From positions 349,185 through 413,184 of the forward strand of contig NZ_JACXZT010000019.1 of the NCBI RefSeq assembly GCF_014779595.1: a DNA stretch of 64,000 bases, in the 5' to 3' direction. Under the pieces are notes generated by a model. That model was not told where the DNA came from. It searched no databases and saw only the letters and a list, made by a program, of their open reading frames with translations. The position numbers and the translations under genes were made by a program. Position 1 is the first letter of the stretch, and each line of letters begins with the position of its first letter. Positions 13,925-37,817 of the stretch are shown piece after piece. This stretch comes from Halomonas sp. ML-15 (GTDB lineage: Bacteria > Pseudomonadota > Gammaproteobacteria > Pseudomonadales > Halomonadaceae).

Positions 13925-14920
13925 ATGAACCAGTCACACAATGCCAAATCGATGGGGAACCTCGTCGCCCAGACCCTACGCAGGATTCCACTGAACGCCA
14001 CTATCCTGGCCCCTCTGGTGGCACTCATTCTGCTCTTCGCCGTGTCATCCCTGGCCAGCGAATACTTTCTCAACAGCCGCAACATCTCCAACGTGCTGCG
14101 CCAGGTCTCCTATACCGGCATCATCGCCATCGGCATGACCTTCGTGATCATCGCCGGCGGCATCGATCTCTCGGTGGGCTCGATGGTGGCACTGGTGGGT
14201 GTGATCGTGCTCTACGTGGTCAACGCCATCAGCGATCCGATCCAGGCGGTGATCCTCGCCATGCTGGCAGCGGTCGTGGCTGGCTCCTTGTTGGGACTCT
14301 TCAATGGCCTGCTGGTCACGCGAGGACGCATCGCCGCCTTCGTGGTAACCCTGGCCAGCATGTCGATCTTCCGCTCACTGGCGCTCTACTTCACCGATGC
14401 CGCCGAAGTCACGACGCGCAACCCGATCTTCTCCAACGTAGGCGGAGGCTTCTTCCTGGGCCTGCCGATTCCGGTCTGGGTGTTCTTCGGCCTGGCCATC
14501 GTCGCCCATGTGCTGCTGTTCCATACCGCGTACGGGCGACATGTCTGCGCCGTCGGTGCCAATCCCCAGGTAGCCCGTTACTCGGGCATCCGCGTCGAGC
14601 GCATCGTGCTCTCCACCTTCGTGATCGCCGGGATTTGCGTTGGGCTGTCGGCGATCATGCTGACCTCGCGCCTCAACTCGGTGAGCCCCAGCGACGCCGG
14701 TTACTTCTACGAGCTGGATGCCATCGCCGCAGTGGTCATCGGCGGCACCGCGCTGTCCGGCGGACGTGGCTCGGTATGGGGCACCGTTATCGGCGCCCTG
14801 ATCCTCGGCATCATCAACAACATGCTCAATCTGACCGGGGTCTCTCCCTACCTGCAGGGACTGGTCAAGGGTGCGGTGATCCTGCTGGCGGTACTGCTGC
14901 AGTACAAGCGTGCCCCCTGA
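13925..14920 (+). CDS. Sugar ABC transporter permease (CUT2 type)
   Basis: A 331-residue inner-membrane protein of the RbsC class with about 8-10 transmembrane segments. It contains IIAGGIDLSVGSMVAL and the FGRHVCAVGANPQ-like segment (AYGRHVCAVGANPQVARYSGI), and a conserved GTALSGGRGSVWGTVIGA region. It begins 1 bp after the ATPase stop. It forms the translocation pore of the importer encoded here. Confidence 0.9.
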   Translation: MNQSHNAKSMGNLVAQTLRRIPLNATILAPLVALILLFAVSSLASEYFLNSRNISNVLRQVSYTGIIAIGMTFVIIAGGIDLSVGSMVALVGVIVLYVVNAISDPIQAVILAMLAAVVAGSLLGLFNGLLVTRGRIAAFVVTLASMSIFRSLALYFTDAAEVTTRNPIFSNVGGGFFLGLPIPVWVFFGLAIVAHVLLFHTAYGRHVCAVGANPQVARYSGIRVERIVLSTFVIAGICVGLSAIMLTSRLNSVSPSDAGYFYELDAIAAVVIGGTALSGGRGSVWGTVIGALILGIINNMLNLTGVSPYLQGLVKGAVILLAVLLQYKRAP

Positions 14921-31563: not shown

Positions 31564-31590
31564 ATTGTTTAAAAACAATATCTTTTTTTT
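31564..31590 (+). terminator. AT-rich hairpin followed by T-run
   Basis: ATTGTTT and AAACAAT form a 7-bp inverted repeat with a 2-nt centre, followed after ATC by eight T. It is weak as a terminator because the stem is AT-rich. It sits directly before the sigma-54-like element and may instead be an AT-rich upstream site. Confidence 0.3.
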
Positions 31591-31605
31591 GGCAAGATGT
31601 TTGCT
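31590..31605 (+). promoter_or_regulatory. Sigma-54-type promoter of the nitrate porter gene
   Basis: TGGCAAGATGTTTGCT matches TGGCAC-N5-TTGCW in all but one position, with the required 10 bases between GG and GC. Initiation near 31616 would give a leader of about 108 nt. Nitrogen-limited, NtrC-dependent expression is expected for nitrate assimilation genes (inference). Confidence 0.65.
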
Positions 31606-31666
31606 TATCAAAAGACAGATATTGGCGTAGACCAGGCTCAAACCGAGTACGAGTGCGTCGACCTGA

Positions 31667-31682
31667 CCTTCAACGGCGAAGG
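31667..31682 (+). promoter_or_regulatory. Leader hairpin with ANTAR-like hexaloop
   Basis: CCTTC and GAAGG pair around the six-base loop AACGGC, which has A at position 1 and G at position 4 as in ANTAR RNA targets. The same loop occurs in the nrtA leader. No second hexaloop hairpin or overlapping terminator is evident here. Confidence 0.35.
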
Positions 31683-31724
31683 CCCTGATCGTGAGTTCGA
31701 CCGTCACTTGACGAGGTTAGTCCC

Positions 31725-33077
31725 ATGGAAATTCGCAACAAGGCCAACAAGATTCGCCTGTTGAACTTCAGCACTCCTCAGATGCGAGCCTTTCACTTCT
31801 CCTGGTTCGCCTTCCATATCTGTTTCTTTGGCTGGTTCGGCATAGCGCCGCTAATGGCCGTGGTCCGCGAGGACCTCAACCTTACCCAGACCCAGATCGG
31901 CAACACCATCATCGCCTCGGTGGCGATCACCGTGATCGTGCGCCTGCTGATCGGCGTGCTGTGCGACCGCATCGGCCCACGCAAGGCCTACTCAGGGCTG
32001 CTGATCCTCGGCTCGATTCCGGTGATGGGTATCGGTTTCGCCAACAGCTTCGAGACCTTCCTGCTGGCCCGTCTGGCGATCGGTGCCATCGGCGCCTCCT
32101 TCGTCATTACCCAGTACCACACCACCATGATGTTCGCCCCCAATGTGGTCGGCACCGCCAACGCCACCTCGGCGGGCTGGGGCAACCTGGGCGGTGGCAC
32201 GACTCAGATCCTGATGCCGCTAATCTTCTCAGGCATTCTGATGCTCGGCGTCAGCGAGACCCTCGGCTGGCGCCTGGCCATGGTCGTGCCCGGCGTGGTG
32301 CTGTTCATTACCGGCATCTGCTACTACCGCTTTACCCAGGATGCGCCCAACGGCAACTTCAAGGATCTGCGCGCCCGCGGTGAGCTGCCCCAGGCAGACG
32401 GTGACAGCGGCGCCGGGCAGACTTTCATGGCAGCCGCCAAGGATATCCGTGTCTGGGCACTGTTCGTGGTCTATGCCATCTGTTTCGGCGTCGAGTTGAC
32501 CATCAATAACATCGCTGCCATCTACTTCTTCGATCACTTCGATCTGACCCTGGCCACCGCCGGCCTTATCGCCGGGCTGTTCGGTCTGATGAACGTTTTC
32601 GCCCGCACCATGGGGGGTATCTTCTCCGATCTCTTCGCACGCAACGGCGGTCTCAAGGGCCGCGTGCGCTGGCTGTTCATCGCCCTGATCTGCGAAGGCA
32701 TCGCCCTGGTGGCCTTCTCGCAGATGCATGTCCTCTCCTATGCCATCGGCATCATGCTGGTGTTCAGCCTGTTCGTGCAGATGGCCGAAGGCGCCACCTA
32801 CGGTGTGGTGCCGTTCATCAACAAGAGGGCGCTGGGCGCCGTTGCTGGCATCGTCGGCGCCGGCGGCAACGTCGGGGCCGTGGCCGCGGCCTTCCTGTTC
32901 CGCTCGGAAGCCATCACTTATCAGCAGGGGCTGTTCTACCTCGGCCTCACCGTGCTGGTGCTGGCCTCCTGTGCCCTGCTGGTGCGCTTCTCTCCGGAGA
33001 CCGAAGCCGAAGAAGCGGCCGCCTATCAGGATGCCGTGGGAGAGAGCACCGGTGCCGGGGCACTCTCGCTGCGTTGA
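31725..33077 (+). CDS. Nitrate/nitrite MFS transporter (NarK/NasA type)
   Basis: A 450-residue inner-membrane protein with 12 predicted segments. The nitrate signature in TM5 (TSAGWGNLGGGTTQ) and its counterpart in TM11 (GIVGAGGNVGAVAAA) are both intact, as are arginines in TM2 (VIVRLLIG) and TM8 (FARTMGG) that bind the anion in NarK. It imports nitrate for assimilation, or exchanges nitrate and nitrite. It is followed by the NIT-ANTAR gene nasR and the nrtABC operon. Its own promoter looks sigma-54 dependent. Confidence 0.92.
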   Translation: MEIRNKANKIRLLNFSTPQMRAFHFSWFAFHICFFGWFGIAPLMAVVREDLNLTQTQIGNTIIASVAITVIVRLLIGVLCDRIGPRKAYSGLLILGSIPVMGIGFANSFETFLLARLAIGAIGASFVITQYHTTMMFAPNVVGTANATSAGWGNLGGGTTQILMPLIFSGILMLGVSETLGWRLAMVVPGVVLFITGICYYRFTQDAPNGNFKDLRARGELPQADGDSGAGQTFMAAAKDIRVWALFVVYAICFGVELTINNIAAIYFFDHFDLTLATAGLIAGLFGLMNVFARTMGGIFSDLFARNGGLKGRVRWLFIALICEGIALVAFSQMHVLSYAIGIMLVFSLFVQMAEGATYGVVPFINKRALGAVAGIVGAGGNVGAVAAAFLFRSEAITYQQGLFYLGLTVLVLASCALLVRFSPETEAEEAAAYQDAVGESTGAGALSLR

Positions 33078-33194: not shown

Positions 33195-34469
33195 ATGACC
33201 CCAGCTCACCACCTGTTGCAGGCCGCCAAACGCAGTGAAATCGACAACCTTCAGCGGCTCGCCGCCACCTGCGAACTGGTCGGCGATATCAGCCGCTTCG
33301 TCCATGCACTGCAGAAAGAGCGCGGCGCCTCGAACATCTATCTCACCTCCCATGCCCAGCGCTTTGGTGGGCGCCGCCTGGAACGCATCACCGACAGCCT
33401 CAAACGTGAGCATGCCATTCGCGACCGCCTCGATGACCTGCCGCATCACGCCGCGAACAATGCACGCCTGCTCAAGCGGATTGCCTGCGTGTGGGCCGCC
33501 CTCGACGCCCTTCCCACTCTGCGCCGGGACATCGAGTCGCTGGCGATCAGCGCCGATGCCGCCACCCAGACCTATAATCGGCTGATCGGCGGCCTGCTGG
33601 CAGTGGTCTTCGATGCCGCTGACACCGCAGACGATCCCGATGTGACACGCTCGCTGGTGGCGATCTTTCATTTCATGCAGGGCAAGGAGCTGGCCGGCCA
33701 GGAACGCGCCTGTGGCGCCATCGGCTTCACCGCCGGTGAGTTCGACAGCGCCCATCGCCAGCTTCTGCTGCAACTGATCGACGCCCAGCAGCGCTGTTTC
33801 GATACCTTCAGCGAGTTTGCCAGCGACGCTGCCCGCGAGCACTGGCAACAGCAGCGCGCTCCGCGCCGCCAGGATGGCATCCAGCAACTCCGCGAGCGGG
33901 CCTGCACCGATAACGCGAGCCAGCAGCTGGATCACGGCCTTGGCGAAACCTGGTACGAGCTCACTACCGCGCGTATCGACGCCATGCAGCAGGTCGAGGC
34001 GCAACTGGCGGCCGAACTCTCCCAGCTCTGCCACCGCAAGATCGAGCAGGCGCGCAGCGACATGCACGACCAGCAGCAGTTGGACGCCTCGCTGCACGAT
34101 GCCATCGAGCAGTGCTCGACCTGTGAGCAGCTGGTCGATCTGTTTCCACAGGAGGCCACTCATGAACTCGGTCAGCTGACTGCCACTGCCGTCGAGTCGC
34201 GGCTCAATCGCGCCCTGATCGACCTGATGCAGTCCCAGAATACGCGACTGCAACATATCAGTGATGAGCTGGAAAACACCCGTGAAATGCTGCGCGAACG
34301 CAAGCTGATCGAGCGCGCCAAGGGCATGATCATGGAACATCAACACATGAGCGAAGACCAGGCCTACCGTTTCCTGCGCAAGGCCTCCATGGACCAGAGC
34401 AAGAGCATGGCCGAGATGGCGAAAACCATCATCGACCTGGCCGATATCCTGAAAAAGCGCCAGGCATAA
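33195..34469 (+). CDS. nasR: Nitrate-sensing antitermination regulator NasR (NIT-ANTAR protein)
   Basis: A 424-residue cytoplasmic regulator. Residues about 25-250 form the all-helical NIT nitrate/nitrite-sensing domain, with the hallmark LQKERGASNIYL near residues 39-50. The C-terminal ANTAR RNA-binding domain spans about residues 366-424 (LIERAKGMIMEHQHMSEDQAYRFLRKASMD). NasR of Klebsiella binds nitrate and then allows readthrough of a leader terminator before the nitrate assimilation operon. An AGGAGG site lies 8 nt before the ATG. A matching two-hairpin leader and terminator follows immediately downstream. Confidence 0.94.
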   Translation: MTPAHHLLQAAKRSEIDNLQRLAATCELVGDISRFVHALQKERGASNIYLTSHAQRFGGRRLERITDSLKREHAIRDRLDDLPHHAANNARLLKRIACVWAALDALPTLRRDIESLAISADAATQTYNRLIGGLLAVVFDAADTADDPDVTRSLVAIFHFMQGKELAGQERACGAIGFTAGEFDSAHRQLLLQLIDAQQRCFDTFSEFASDAAREHWQQQRAPRRQDGIQQLRERACTDNASQQLDHGLGETWYELTTARIDAMQQVEAQLAAELSQLCHRKIEQARSDMHDQQQLDASLHDAIEQCSTCEQLVDLFPQEATHELGQLTATAVESRLNRALIDLMQSQNTRLQHISDELENTREMLRERKLIERAKGMIMEHQHMSEDQAYRFLRKASMDQSKSMAEMAKTIIDLADILKKRQA

Positions 34470-34594
34470 GGGCGGCTGTGGTGCGCCGCATCATGGCCAC
34501 GCACCAAGACAACGCCATACCAGGCATCGGCTCACACCGCCCACCTTTCGCAAGTCCTTGTTAACGAATGGATCAAGACGATTTCATGTAACGA

Positions 34595-34610
34595 TGGCAC
34601 CCAACCTGCA
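34595..34610 (+). promoter_or_regulatory. Sigma-54-type promoter of nrtABC
   Basis: TGGCACCCAACCTGCA matches TGGCAC-N5-TTGCA with one mismatch and the exact 10-base GG-to-GC distance. Initiation would be near 34620, only a few bases before hairpin P1. Confidence 0.7.
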
Positions 34611-34624
34611 ACGTTCTAGCGTAC

Positions 34625-34646
34625 GCTGAGTCAACGACGGTTCAGC
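34625..34646 (+). promoter_or_regulatory. ANTAR target hairpin P1 (hexaloop AACGAC)
   Basis: GCTGAGTC and GGTTCAGC pair as an 8-bp stem (two G-U pairs) closing the six-base loop AACGAC. Loop positions 1 (A) and 4 (G) fit the ANTAR RNA consensus. Confidence 0.65.
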
Positions 34647-34666
34647 TCCTAGGCAGTTCTCAATAC

Positions 34667-34682
34667 CGGACAACGGCGTCTG
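34667..34682 (+). promoter_or_regulatory. ANTAR target hairpin P2 / antiterminator (hexaloop AACGGC)
   Basis: CGGAC and GTCTG pair (one G-U) around loop AACGGC, again with A at 1 and G at 4. Its 3' arm and loop are part of the 5' arm of the downstream terminator, so both cannot form together. Confidence 0.65.
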
Positions 34683-34733
34683 ATAAGAGTCACCCAACGT
34701 GGGTGTAGCTCGAGTCAGGCGCCGTTTCTTTTT
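34672..34733 (+). terminator. Regulated intrinsic terminator in the nrtA leader
   Basis: AACGGCGTCTGA pairs with TCAGGCGCCGTT over 12 bp (one G-U). A small CACCC / GGGTG hairpin sits in the loop, and TTTCTTTTTG follows. It ends 16 nt before the nrtA start codon. Confidence 0.8.
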
Positions 34734-34748
34734 GTTTGGAGCCATCGC

Positions 34749-36053
34749 ATGAACAACAATAGATTCAAGGGCTACTCCCCTCAGCGTCGTCGCTTTCTGA
34801 AGAACTCCGCCACCTTGGTTGGTGGCTCGGCACTGCTCAGCAGCCTGCCCGTCAGTTGGGCCTTTGCCGACGGCAAACCGGAAACCACTGCAGCCAAGCT
34901 TGGCTTCATTGCCCTGACCGATGCCGCCCCGCTGTTTGTCGCCGACGAAAAGGGGTTCTTCGCCAAGCACGGCATGACCGATGTCGAGGTACTCAAGCAG
35001 TCTTCCTGGGGTACCACCCGCGACAACCTGGTGCTCGGCTCGCAGCGCAACGGCATCGATGGGGCACATATCCTCACGCCGATGCCCTATCTGATCAGCT
35101 CCGGTGCCGTCACCCCCAATAACCAGCCGGTGCCGATGAGCATCCTCGCGCGCCTCAACCTCAACGGCCAATGCATCTCGGTAGGCAGTGACTATGCCGA
35201 CCTGGAGGTGCAGCTAGACACCCGTGAATTTGGCCAGGCACTAGCCGAGAAGCGTGCCGGTGGCGACGAGGCGAGCGCTGCGATGACCTTCCCTGGCGGC
35301 ACCCACGACATGTGGATTCGCTACTGGATGGCCGCCGGCGGCATCGACCCCAATCGCGATGTCTCGACCATCACCATTCCCCCCGCACAGATGGTCGCCA
35401 ATATGCGCGTTGGCAGCATGGATACCTTCTGCGTCTGCGAGCCGTGGAACCATCAGCTGGTCAACCAGGGGATCGGTTATACCGCCAATACCACCGGCGA
35501 ACTGTGGAATGACCATCCGGAAAAAGCCTTCGCCATGCGCAGTGATTATGTGGAAGAGAATCCCAACGCTACCCAGGCGCTATTGATGGCAATCATGGAA
35601 GCCCAGATGTGGTGTGAAGACCCGGCCAACCATGAAGAGATGGCACAGATCTGCTCGCGTCGACGCTGGATTCACGCGCCTTTCGACGACCTTATCGACC
35701 GTATTCAAGGAAACTTCGACTACGGGACCGGGCGAGTCATCGAGAACCACCCGCAGATGATGCGCTACTGGGATCGCCACGCTTCTTACCCTTACAAGAG
35801 TCATGATCTGTGGTTCTTGACCGAGAACAAGCGCTGGGGCTACCTGCCGCAGGATCTCGACAGCGCAGCCTTGATCGAGCAGGTCAATCGCGAGGACCTA
35901 TGGCGCCAGGCTGCCGACCGTCTCGGCGTGGCCTCGGCCGATATTCCCGACTCGACATCCCGCGGCGTCGAAACCTTTTTCGACGGCAAGACGTTCGACC
36001 CCGAGGATCCCCAGGCCTATCTCGACAGCCTCGAGATCAAGCGCCTGGCCTGA
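34749..36053 (+). CDS. nrtA: Nitrate ABC transporter substrate-binding protein (NrtA/NasF family)
   Basis: A 434-residue receptor of the NrtA/CmpA family. A twin-arginine signal (PQRRRFLKNSATL, Arg13-15) suggests export by Tat. The mature protein contains LGFIALTDAAPLFVADEKGFFAKHG, the family opening, and VCEPWNHQLVNQGIGY. It captures nitrate (possibly nitrite or cyanate) in the periplasm for NrtBC. It is the first gene of nrtABC and its expression is likely controlled by antitermination in its leader. Confidence 0.93.
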   Translation: MNNNRFKGYSPQRRRFLKNSATLVGGSALLSSLPVSWAFADGKPETTAAKLGFIALTDAAPLFVADEKGFFAKHGMTDVEVLKQSSWGTTRDNLVLGSQRNGIDGAHILTPMPYLISSGAVTPNNQPVPMSILARLNLNGQCISVGSDYADLEVQLDTREFGQALAEKRAGGDEASAAMTFPGGTHDMWIRYWMAAGGIDPNRDVSTITIPPAQMVANMRVGSMDTFCVCEPWNHQLVNQGIGYTANTTGELWNDHPEKAFAMRSDYVEENPNATQALLMAIMEAQMWCEDPANHEEMAQICSRRRWIHAPFDDLIDRIQGNFDYGTGRVIENHPQMMRYWDRHASYPYKSHDLWFLTENKRWGYLPQDLDSAALIEQVNREDLWRQAADRLGVASADIPDSTSRGVETFFDGKTFDPEDPQAYLDSLEIKRLA

Positions 36054-36101: not shown

Positions 36102-36956
36102 ATGAGCGTTTCATCCAGCGCTGATAGTCCTAGTCGTCCGCTACTGGGCGGCTGGTCCGCCAATCTGCAAAAGGTTCGCGACACCCTGATCCACAATGTC
36201 CTGCCGCCGGTGATCATCCTCGCCGTGCTCGGGGCGATCTGGGAGATCCTCTGCTCGGCGCCAGGCGCGGCACTGCCGCCCCCTTCCCAGGTAATCACCG
36301 ACACCTGGGAGCTGATCGTCAATCCCTTCTACGACTACGGTGGCAACGACAAGGGCATGGGCTGGCAGATCCTCGCCAGCCTCGAGCGGGTCGCCTACGG
36401 CTATCTGCTGGCGGTGGTGGCCGGCATCAGCCTGGGCGTACTGGTCGGCCAGTCCACCTGGGCCATGCGCGGGCTCGATCCGGTCTTCCAGGTGCTGCGC
36501 ACCGTGCCGCCGCTGGCCTGGCTGCCGATCTCGCTGGCCGGCTTTCAGGACAGCACCCCCTCGGCGATCTTCGTGATCTTCATCACGGCGATCTGGCCGA
36601 TCATCATCAACACCTCGGTCGGGGTACGTAATATCCCCGAGGATTACCGCAACGTGGCGCGGGTGCTGCGCCTCAACGGCGCGGAGTATTTCACCCGCAT
36701 CATGCTGCCGGCCGCCGCCCCCTATATCTTCTCCGGGCTACGTATCGGCGTGGGTCTCTCGTGGCTGGCCATCGTCGCCGCCGAGATGCTGATCGGCGGC
36801 GTGGGCATCGGCTTCTTTATCTGGGACGCCTGGAACGCCTCGATGATCAGCGACATCGTACTGGCGCTGGTGTATGTCGGCATCGTCGGCTTCTTCCTCG
36901 ATCGCATGGTCGCTTACATCGGCAATCGCGTGACCCGCGGCACCGCCAAAGGCTAA
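36102..36956 (+). CDS. nrtB: Nitrate ABC transporter permease NrtB
   Basis: A 284-residue inner-membrane protein of the NrtB/SsuC type with about six segments. The binding-protein-dependent loop is NVARVLRLNGAEYFTRIMLPAAAPYIFSG (EAA-like motif, split here by position about 185-215). The segment LRTVPPLAWLPISLAGF is typical of nitrate/taurine-type permeases. It starts 48 bp after nrtA with a GGGAG site and is followed by the ATPase after 12 bp. Confidence 0.92.
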   Translation: MSVSSSADSPSRPLLGGWSANLQKVRDTLIHNVLPPVIILAVLGAIWEILCSAPGAALPPPSQVITDTWELIVNPFYDYGGNDKGMGWQILASLERVAYGYLLAVVAGISLGVLVGQSTWAMRGLDPVFQVLRTVPPLAWLPISLAGFQDSTPSAIFVIFITAIWPIIINTSVGVRNIPEDYRNVARVLRLNGAEYFTRIMLPAAAPYIFSGLRIGVGLSWLAIVAAEMLIGGVGIGFFIWDAWNASMISDIVLALVYVGIVGFFLDRMVAYIGNRVTRGTAKG

Positions 36957-36968
36957 CGGAGACTCCCC

Positions 36969-37817
36969 ATGACCAATCGCTATCTCAGCATCGAACAGGT
37001 CGATATGACCTTTCACTCCAAGGGCGGGGCGAGCGATGTCCTCAAGGGCATCAACCTGAGCGTCGCCCGCGGCGAGTACATCTCGATCATCGGCCACTCC
37101 GGCTGCGGCAAGTCGACCCTGCTAAATATCATCGCCGGGTTGACCGACTCCACCTCCGGCGCGGTGATTCTCGACGGCAAGGAGGTCAATTCCCCAGGCC
37201 CCGATCGCAGCGTGGTGTTTCAGAACCACTCGCTGCTGCCGTGGTTGACCGTATATGAGAACGTCGCACTGGCGGTCAACAAGACCTGCGCGCGCACCAA
37301 GACCAAAGCCGAGCGTCACGACTGGATTCTCAAGAATCTGGAGATGGTGGGCATGAGCCACGCCCTGGACAAGCGCCCGGCAGAGATCTCCGGCGGCATG
37401 AAGCAGCGCGTCGGTATCGCCCGGGCGCTCTCCATGGAGCCCAAGGTACTGCTGCTCGATGAGCCCTTCGGCGCACTCGACGCTCTGACCCGCGCCCACC
37501 TCCAGGAGGAGGTGATGCGTATCCAGGACGAGCTCGGCAACACAGTGATCATGATCACCCACGACGTCGACGAGGCGGTGCTGCTCTCCGACCGTATCGT
37601 GATGCTGACCAACGGCCCCTCGGCACGCATCGGTGAAGTCCTCGACATCGATCTGCCGCGGCCGCGCAATCGCATCACCCTGGCCGACGATCCGGCCTAC
37701 AACCGCTACCGACAGGAAGTACTGCGTTTTCTCTACGAGAAACAGCGCAAGGTCGAGCAACTCGCCGAGCGGCGTGACAAGCCTGCCAAGCCCAAACCCA
37801 CCAAGGCCCGCGCCTGA
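36969..37817 (+). CDS. nrtC: Nitrate ABC transporter ATP-binding protein (NrtC/NrtD, NasD type)
   Basis: A 282-residue ATPase. Walker A is GHSGCGKST, the signature is ISGGMKQRV, Walker B is VLLLDEPFGALD and the switch His is in MITHDVDEAV. It lacks the extra NrtA-like domain found on cyanobacterial NrtC, as is usual in proteobacteria. Basic lysine-rich C-terminal tail (KPAKPKPTKARA). It completes the nitrate importer. Confidence 0.92.
   Translation: MTNRYLSIEQVDMTFHSKGGASDVLKGINLSVARGEYISIIGHSGCGKSTLLNIIAGLTDSTSGAVILDGKEVNSPGPDRSVVFQNHSLLPWLTVYENVALAVNKTCARTKTKAERHDWILKNLEMVGMSHALDKRPAEISGGMKQRVGIARALSMEPKVLLLDEPFGALDALTRAHLQEEVMRIQDELGNTVIMITHDVDEAVLLSDRIVMLTNGPSARIGEVLDIDLPRPRNRITLADDPAYNRYRQEVLRFLYEKQRKVEQLAERRDKPAKPKPTKARA

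Follow-up and report, generated by a model that had tools for sequence, protein, structure and literature searches.

The leader RNA between nasR and nrtA is very probably a transcription-antitermination switch through which nitrate and NasR control nrtABC, as described for Klebsiella nasF. Regulation of this kind is known; the new parts are the spacing that the leader's elements keep in this family and a conserved element in the leader of the neighbouring narK. The earlier note on the window (the whole stretch of 64,000 nucleotides that was analysed) had described a promoter motif, two hairpins (P1 and P2) and a terminator at 34595-34749, and direct reading found all of them as described (Table 1). 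Papers are cited by PMC identifier, for those parts of their text that were available.

Table 1. Coordinates of the features discussed; positions are those of the window unless stated otherwise
Feature	Position	Strand	Basis
Sigma-54-like site TGGCAAGATGTTTGCT before narK, one mismatch to pattern	31590..31605	+	conserved
Conserved narK-leader element, most likely RNA (model R1), terminal hairpin CCTTC-AACGGC-GAAGG resembling an ANTAR target	31622..31683	+	
narK-family nitrate/nitrite transporter, same direction, upstream of nasR	31725..33077	+	sequence matches
nasR, NIT-ANTAR protein, likely regulator	33195..34469	+	domain and structure matches
Sigma-54-type -24/-12 site TGGCAC-CCAAC-CTGCA (TGGCAC-N5-CTGCA)	34595..34610	+	direct reading; predicted start about 34621 inferred
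Hairpin P1 GCTGAGTC-AACGAC-GGTTCAGC, hexaloop AACGAC, C:G closing	34625..34646	+	reading, fold, covariation
P1-P2 linker, 20 nt (21 with P2 taken as 4 pairs)	34647..34666	+	no fold predicted
Hairpin P2 (antiterminator) CGGAC-AACGGC-GTCTG, hexaloop AACGGC, C:G closing	34667..34682	+	reading, fold, covariation
Intrinsic terminator stem-loop, built from P2 loop and P2 3' arm	34672..34726	+	folding, scan
Terminator T-run TCTTTTTG	34727..34734	+	direct reading
nrtA-type substrate-binding protein (NMT1_2)	34749..36053	+	domain match
Nitrate ABC transporter permease	36102..36956	+	ntrB model over cut-off
Nitrate ABC transporter ATP-binding protein	36969..37817	+	ntrCD model over cut-off
NasT-NasS-like system with its own leader, outside the window	L033:5738-7610 (G000:C17 about 418.7-420.6 kb)		

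Anatomy, probable regulator and conservation of the nrtA leader

Direct reading gives P1 a stem of eight pairs (two of them G-U) and P2 a stem of five (one G-U), and both hexaloops have the A at position 1 and the G at position 4 that had been pointed out, together with a C:G closing pair. A1 and G4 belong to the two-hairpin ANTAR model (PMC3369931, PMC3369936), and all three features are preferences of NasR in SELEX (PMC7496416); the -24/-12 element upstream has the fixed spacing of sigma-54 promoters. Because the loop and 3' arm of P2 are also the 5' arm of an intrinsic terminator with a T-run, P2 and terminator are mutually exclusive; readings and folds agree on this, as had been proposed. 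The terminator had been put at 12 bp and 34672-34733: it is present, but its predicted fold has 13 outer pairs plus an inner stem, the stem-loop ends at 34726, and the longer span includes the T-run. The terminator folds at -36.2 kcal/mol and P2 alone at -4.2; for the leader from 34621 to 34740 the predicted fold, which contains both P1 and the terminator, has an energy of -51.7 kcal/mol (z = -4.45, equalled by none of 200 shuffles). When the RNA is folded only up to P2, both P1 and P2 are predicted to form; when it is folded to 34705, short of the terminator's 3' arm, P1 is kept and P2 is replaced by other weak pairs.

The gene directly upstream does encode a NIT-ANTAR protein, as the note had it: both Pfam domains were found (NIT, PF08376, 5.6e-51; ANTAR, PF03861, 2.3e-20), and the best solved-structure match is K. 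oxytoca NasR itself (4akk, E 1.8e-51). The leader thus has a cognate NIT-ANTAR gene beside it, the likely regulator. After nrtABC, no reductase gene was recognised by eye. Under nitrogen limitation, sigma-54 RNA polymerase would initiate near 34621, and P1, about 5 nt from the RNA 5' end, would fold at once. Without nitrate, the strong terminator (34672-34726) would form and transcription would halt ahead of nrtABC; with nitrate, the NIT domain would release the ANTAR domains of the NasR dimer, the freed domains would bind the P1 and P2 loops, and the stabilised P2 would keep the bases that the terminator needs, permitting readthrough into nrtABC.

NasR was detected in 110 of 275 family genomes, and at 30 of the 110 loci the 900 nt that follow hold P2 and a terminator overlapping it; 26 of these 30 have P1 as well. 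Twelve of the 30 leaders precede nrtA (at least 77% identity) and 14 precede narK, with three more before nrtA-like genes of 31-75% identity and one before neither. Wherever nrtA of at least 77% identity comes right after nasR, promoter site, P1, P2 and terminator are all present (12/12 family loci, from 5/5 genomes of the window's genus and 7/14 NasR-positive genomes of a second genus). The 80 loci that fail the P2-terminator scan include many in which narK precedes nasR and nothing downstream of nasR was recognised as a nitrate gene, as well as cut or partial nasR genes and two near-misses (a weak T-run; a masked stretch). No P1 was found in four of the 30 leaders (L099, L101, L102 and L106), which show a sigma-54-like site, P2 and terminator after nasR and are possible natural single-hairpin variants.

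The leader also accompanies NasR within one genus (g9). Both hairpins stand before narK in its three NasR-positive genomes (two of which pass the T-run rule, and in one of which a stop codon interrupts the nasR match), and in its four ANTAR-less genomes with narK no C:G-closed A..G.. hexaloop hairpin of at least 4 pairs was found in the 420 nt upstream (Fisher p = 0.029, seven genomes, uncorrected for kinship). These four keep the -24/-12 site TGGCAYRTGTCTTGCT some 150-160 nt before the narK start, and in one of them narK is split between two frames. Two more g9 genomes, which have an ANTAR gene and no NasR, carry the core of the other narK leader, described below, instead.

Covariation of the stems, named in the earlier note as a check, is clear in P1 and moderate in P2. 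The searches behind the alignments required A1, G4 and a minimum stem (in the enterobacterial set also the C:G pair and the P2 sequence), and the longest stem was taken as P1. With the bias towards paired cells that this choice brings, 94.0% of P1 cells pair versus 79.5% after shuffling (38 distinct of 56 sequences), 42 cells hold double changes versus 11.6, and the covariation score is 0.551 versus 0.260, a value as high in none of 500 shuffles; double changes occur in 5/7 pairs of P1, a number no higher than in shuffles (mean 4.1; 169/500 as high). For P2 (15 distinct of 60 sequences), 89.3% of cells pair versus 84.2% (10/500), 3/5 pairs have double changes versus 1.2 (8/500), and the score is 0.322 versus 0.235 (1/500), a signal that is moderate to weak in bases that the terminator constrains as well. 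The nasF-like circuit of the earlier note is thus supported by the regulator, the covariation and the leader's company with NasR; its layout, however, is unlike that of Klebsiella nasF, and a second ANTAR protein is present.

Spacing of promoter, P1 and P2

In this family P1 is fixed to the promoter and the linker to P2 is variable, whereas in enterobacterial nasF leaders the reverse holds; this is a new finding. The distance from the -12 C to the P1 loop is 21-25 nt (sd 1.3) in the 26 family leaders with P1 and 30-65 nt (sd 9.3) in 30 of 31 enterobacterial nasF loci, and the linker is 21-120 nt (sd 27.5) in the former and 7-12 nt (sd 1.5) in the latter, with P1 differently defined in the two sets: near the promoter in the family, within 75 nt of P2 in the enterobacteria, each search permitting wider ranges than those found. 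The 31st enterobacterial locus had no P2 anchor and was left out. The position of P1 about 5 nt from the predicted start, as first described for the window, is therefore not only correct but conserved, given its fixed promoter distance in the 26 leaders. Klebsiella nasF has the same sigma-54-type site, A..G.. hexaloops in P1 and P2, P2 within the terminator, nasR just upstream and, after the leader, a gene that reads by eye as NrtA/NasF-like; in a K. grimontii locus (L177, 100% identical over the NasR query), however, the -12 C lies 43 nt from the P1 loop and the linker has 8 nt, versus 24 and 21 nt in the window.

The linkers fall into classes: 21-22 nt in the 12 nrtA leaders, 48-120 nt in eight narK leaders and 68-73 nt in six narK leaders. 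Those of at least 48 nt are mostly predicted to fold and the window's is not. The 120-nt linker of one leader (L100) includes a 16-nt unit, CCTTATCTGRCAYAGY, that is repeated in tandem about four times. A further A..G.. hexaloop hairpin stands 11-12 nt before P2 in six narK leaders (L082, L083, L084, L085, L088 and L089) and may be the working partner of P2 there, so that the reading of a free linker rests on 20 leaders. The stem of the promoter-near P1 has a mismatch in L085, L088 and L089.

Enterococcus eut leaders, which answer to EutV, share the two-hairpin antiterminator overlapping a terminator and differ in having a two-component regulator, another signal and linkers of 5-12 nt; in E. 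faecalis, lengthening to 14 nt drastically reduced EutV induction (PMC3369931). The window's linker of 20-21 nt lies outside that range, which we count as a trait of eut leaders and not as class-defining. The linker falls within 2-25 nt, the span allowed for ANTAR RNAs of actinobacteria (PMC8164766). For the long linkers of the family, set against the EutV limit, either folding bridges them or NasR is less strict.

A position fixed to the promoter, not to P2, would also suit a switch made of P2 and terminator in which P1 had another role, such as protection of the RNA 5' end. The four leaders without P1, and the six in which another hexaloop hairpin near P2 may be the true partner, fit such an arrangement, and K. 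oxytoca NasR with nitrate, which binds P1P2 at about 1 uM, does bind P2 alone, if weakly, at about 12 uM (PMC7496416). All 26 family P1 loops, however, read AANG.C with a C:G closing pair, although the search required only A1 and G4; this goes beyond what an end cap needs, and in the nasF leader P1 is reported to be essential (PMC3369936). We therefore think it unlikely that P1 stands outside the switch, and favour a two-hairpin target for NasR.

Other ANTAR leaders and the chance expectation

Two ANTAR matches were found in the genome, which comprises 4.8 Mb in 20 contigs. One is nasR; the other, about 36 kb further on, is a receiver-like ANTAR protein with an NrtA-like protein after it. Neither of these last two is over any family-model cut-off, and we take them to be NasT and NasS. 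Downstream of this pair lie a sigma-54-type site, P1, a 6-nt linker and P2 with a terminator, then genes for a NirB-like protein that stays below cut-off and for NirB. The opposite strand encodes a molybdopterin oxidoreductase, which scores under the cut-offs and is akin to assimilatory nitrate reductases. A further hairpin with a hexaloop (ATCGCG) stands ahead of P1 in this leader, 27 nt before P2. The K. oxytoca operon is nasFEDCBA (PMC3369931), whereas here the nirB-type genes sit in the NasT-like cluster instead; NasR probably controls nrtABC, and NasT the nirB-type genes.

The nrtA leader might nonetheless be controlled mainly by the NasT-like protein, or by both regulators, as loops with A1 and G4 would be visible to either ANTAR domain and the NasT-like pair has a sigma-54-type site and a two-hairpin leader of its own. 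Its nearest P1, though, lies 6 nt from P2 (3/3 examined genomes of the genus), versus 21 nt in nrtA leaders. The further hairpin 27 nt before P2 means that the spacing of the NasT-like leader is not uniquely short, and the short linker itself rests on three genomes of one genus, because a scan of 20 further loci found NasT-type leaders in only four (two of the window's genus, and two others with linkers of 21 and 8 nt and no promoter site found). The nasR gene adjoins the nrtA leader, and nrtA (E <= 1e-60) was absent from all 18 genomes tested, of 90 with an ANTAR gene and no detected NasR, a search that had no positive control. On balance, control by the NasT-like protein is improbable, and NasR remains the regulator that we propose for nrtABC. 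The genome, in which two ANTAR systems linked to nitrate have leaders of different spacing, is well suited to the study of ANTAR target discrimination.

Both leaders have the same best, sub-threshold match in Rfam, RF03032 ('narK RNA'): 34596-34682 in the window (E 0.0075; 24.7 bits, under the gathering threshold of 43.2, by which the leader is not a member) and E 0.0055 for the NasT-like leader. The consensus GGCaCA-N4-UUGCU, its hairpin C-AACGGC-G and CGACAAAGACGUCG correspond to the -24/-12 element, P1 and P2; it differs in that the model shows P2 unpaired and, by eye, in a 7-nt linker, and since its P1 lies (again by eye) 24 nt from the -12 C, it fits both spacing rules. At E <= 0.001 RF03032 matches 15 of 339 class genomes, two of them over its cut-off; the window's genome is not one of the 15. 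An ANTAR gene occurs in 13 of these 15 and in 104 of all 339, and in each of the 13 at least one RF03032 match shares a contig with it at a distance of 54 nt to 9.2 kb, thus within 10 kb. To judge by its consensus, RF03032 looks like an ANTAR leader with its promoter, of the same design as the window's, and the Rfam narK RNA would thereby gain a likely function; our literature search, which took in few subscription journals, found no paper describing it as such. The Pseudomonas family RF00625 ('P11'; sub-threshold match, E 0.083) has GGCACA-N4-CUGC, a hairpin CcuuC-AACGau-GaagG and GGACAAAGGCGUCC within a terminator-like stem. This consensus resembles a sigma-54 element with two ANTAR hairpins and a terminator, and its first hairpin is like that of the narK leader. 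P11 (NalA) is presumably the NasT-controlled leader of nirBD, and would differ in its gene and in answering to NasT instead of NasR.

It is scarcely credible that the nrtA leader is an unregulated terminator after nasR with hairpins there by chance: a terminator often follows a gene and the promoter motif by itself occurs at about its chance frequency, but resampling 34470-34748 (plus strand) 5000 times produced the pattern once, P1 covaries, and the order promoter-P1-P2-terminator recurs in 26 leaders and is absent from ANTAR-less relatives. A scanner for two A..G.. hexaloop hairpins with a terminator starting inside P2, run on both strands, found this one place in the whole window (mean 0.2 in ten Markov-resampled windows), and the P2-terminator pattern has one exact match in the whole genome. 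The promoter motif was rejected as stand-alone evidence: at up to one mismatch the window has nine sites with 6.63 expected, and the other exact match, at 14019, is inside an ORF that reads as a transport permease. A simple terminator scan of the window missed the leader terminator, presumably because of its internal loops, and listed two others, both on the minus strand (1.2 expected).

A conserved element in the narK leader

The element before narK is real and conserved, and is most likely RNA. Its core, which encloses a variable inner hairpin, is present in 55/55 narK-before-nasR upstream regions, picked regardless of the core, and 54 of the 55 have the hairpin CCTTC-AANGNN-GAAGG. Of 275 family genomes, 175 have a match to model R1. 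The same model found four among 369 class genomes: two in the family, one outside it before a narK-like start, and one (G381) that is probably false, there being no narK after it. Ninety distinct copies were chosen by a pattern that fixes the core letters (L176, which matches the model and not the pattern, was left out); a narK-like start follows 89 by pattern and the last by eye. The inner hairpin covaries: among 45 distinct hairpins the mean stem is 4.42 pairs, versus 3.73 (maximum 4.00 in 1000) when the 3' halves are dealt anew. The outer stem and 3' hairpin hardly vary and so are uninformative on pairing; a CAGG/CCUG pairing inside the element was dropped as unsupported, as one side varies and the other does not.

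In the 60 nt upstream, 85/89 copies have a -24/-12-like site (score of 9 of 11 or better) versus 56/4450 shuffles, and the A..G.. hexaloop is kept in 77/90, nine of the 13 exceptions belonging to one genus without detected NasR, with loops of at most 5 nt. Two copies searched against Rfam to E = 10 had no credible match: one gave nothing, and the other a pair of weak matches to human lncRNAs with E 2.6 and 7.7, scores far under threshold. With these two copies, no Rfam family was found for the conserved element. Specificity for NasR was abandoned, since NasR was detected in 86 of the genomes that have the element and not in the other 89. Some ANTAR gene is found in 173 of the 175 genomes with the element; this link is largely explained by the rarity of narK itself in ANTAR-less genomes, only 6 of 75 having narK of this kind (E <= 1e-60), two of the six with the element. 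By eye, an alternative helix of the element's 3' strand with the region before the narK start was seen, and no terminator was recognised in the narK leader.

One possible role of the narK leader is that of a switch that responds to a metabolite or to an ANTAR protein and controls narK translation or elongation. If so, nasR, where it is co-transcribed with narK, would also be under this switch, which would close a feedback loop. With somewhat more doubt than confidence in the whole, we suggest that the cluster has two different leader RNAs, each beginning immediately behind a sigma-54-type promoter, that NasR tolerates long, often folded linkers provided that P1 is 5'-terminal, and that the narK leader represents a novel class of RNA with the almost invariant core GRCGURGACCAGG-(variable hairpin)-YACGAGUGCGUC, in most cases with an ANTAR-like hexaloop hairpin after it. 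With the nrtA leader, the nasF paradigm reaches a family whose leaders combine these parts under another spacing rule and so offer natural variants for testing the 'optimal proximity' rule of ANTAR targets.
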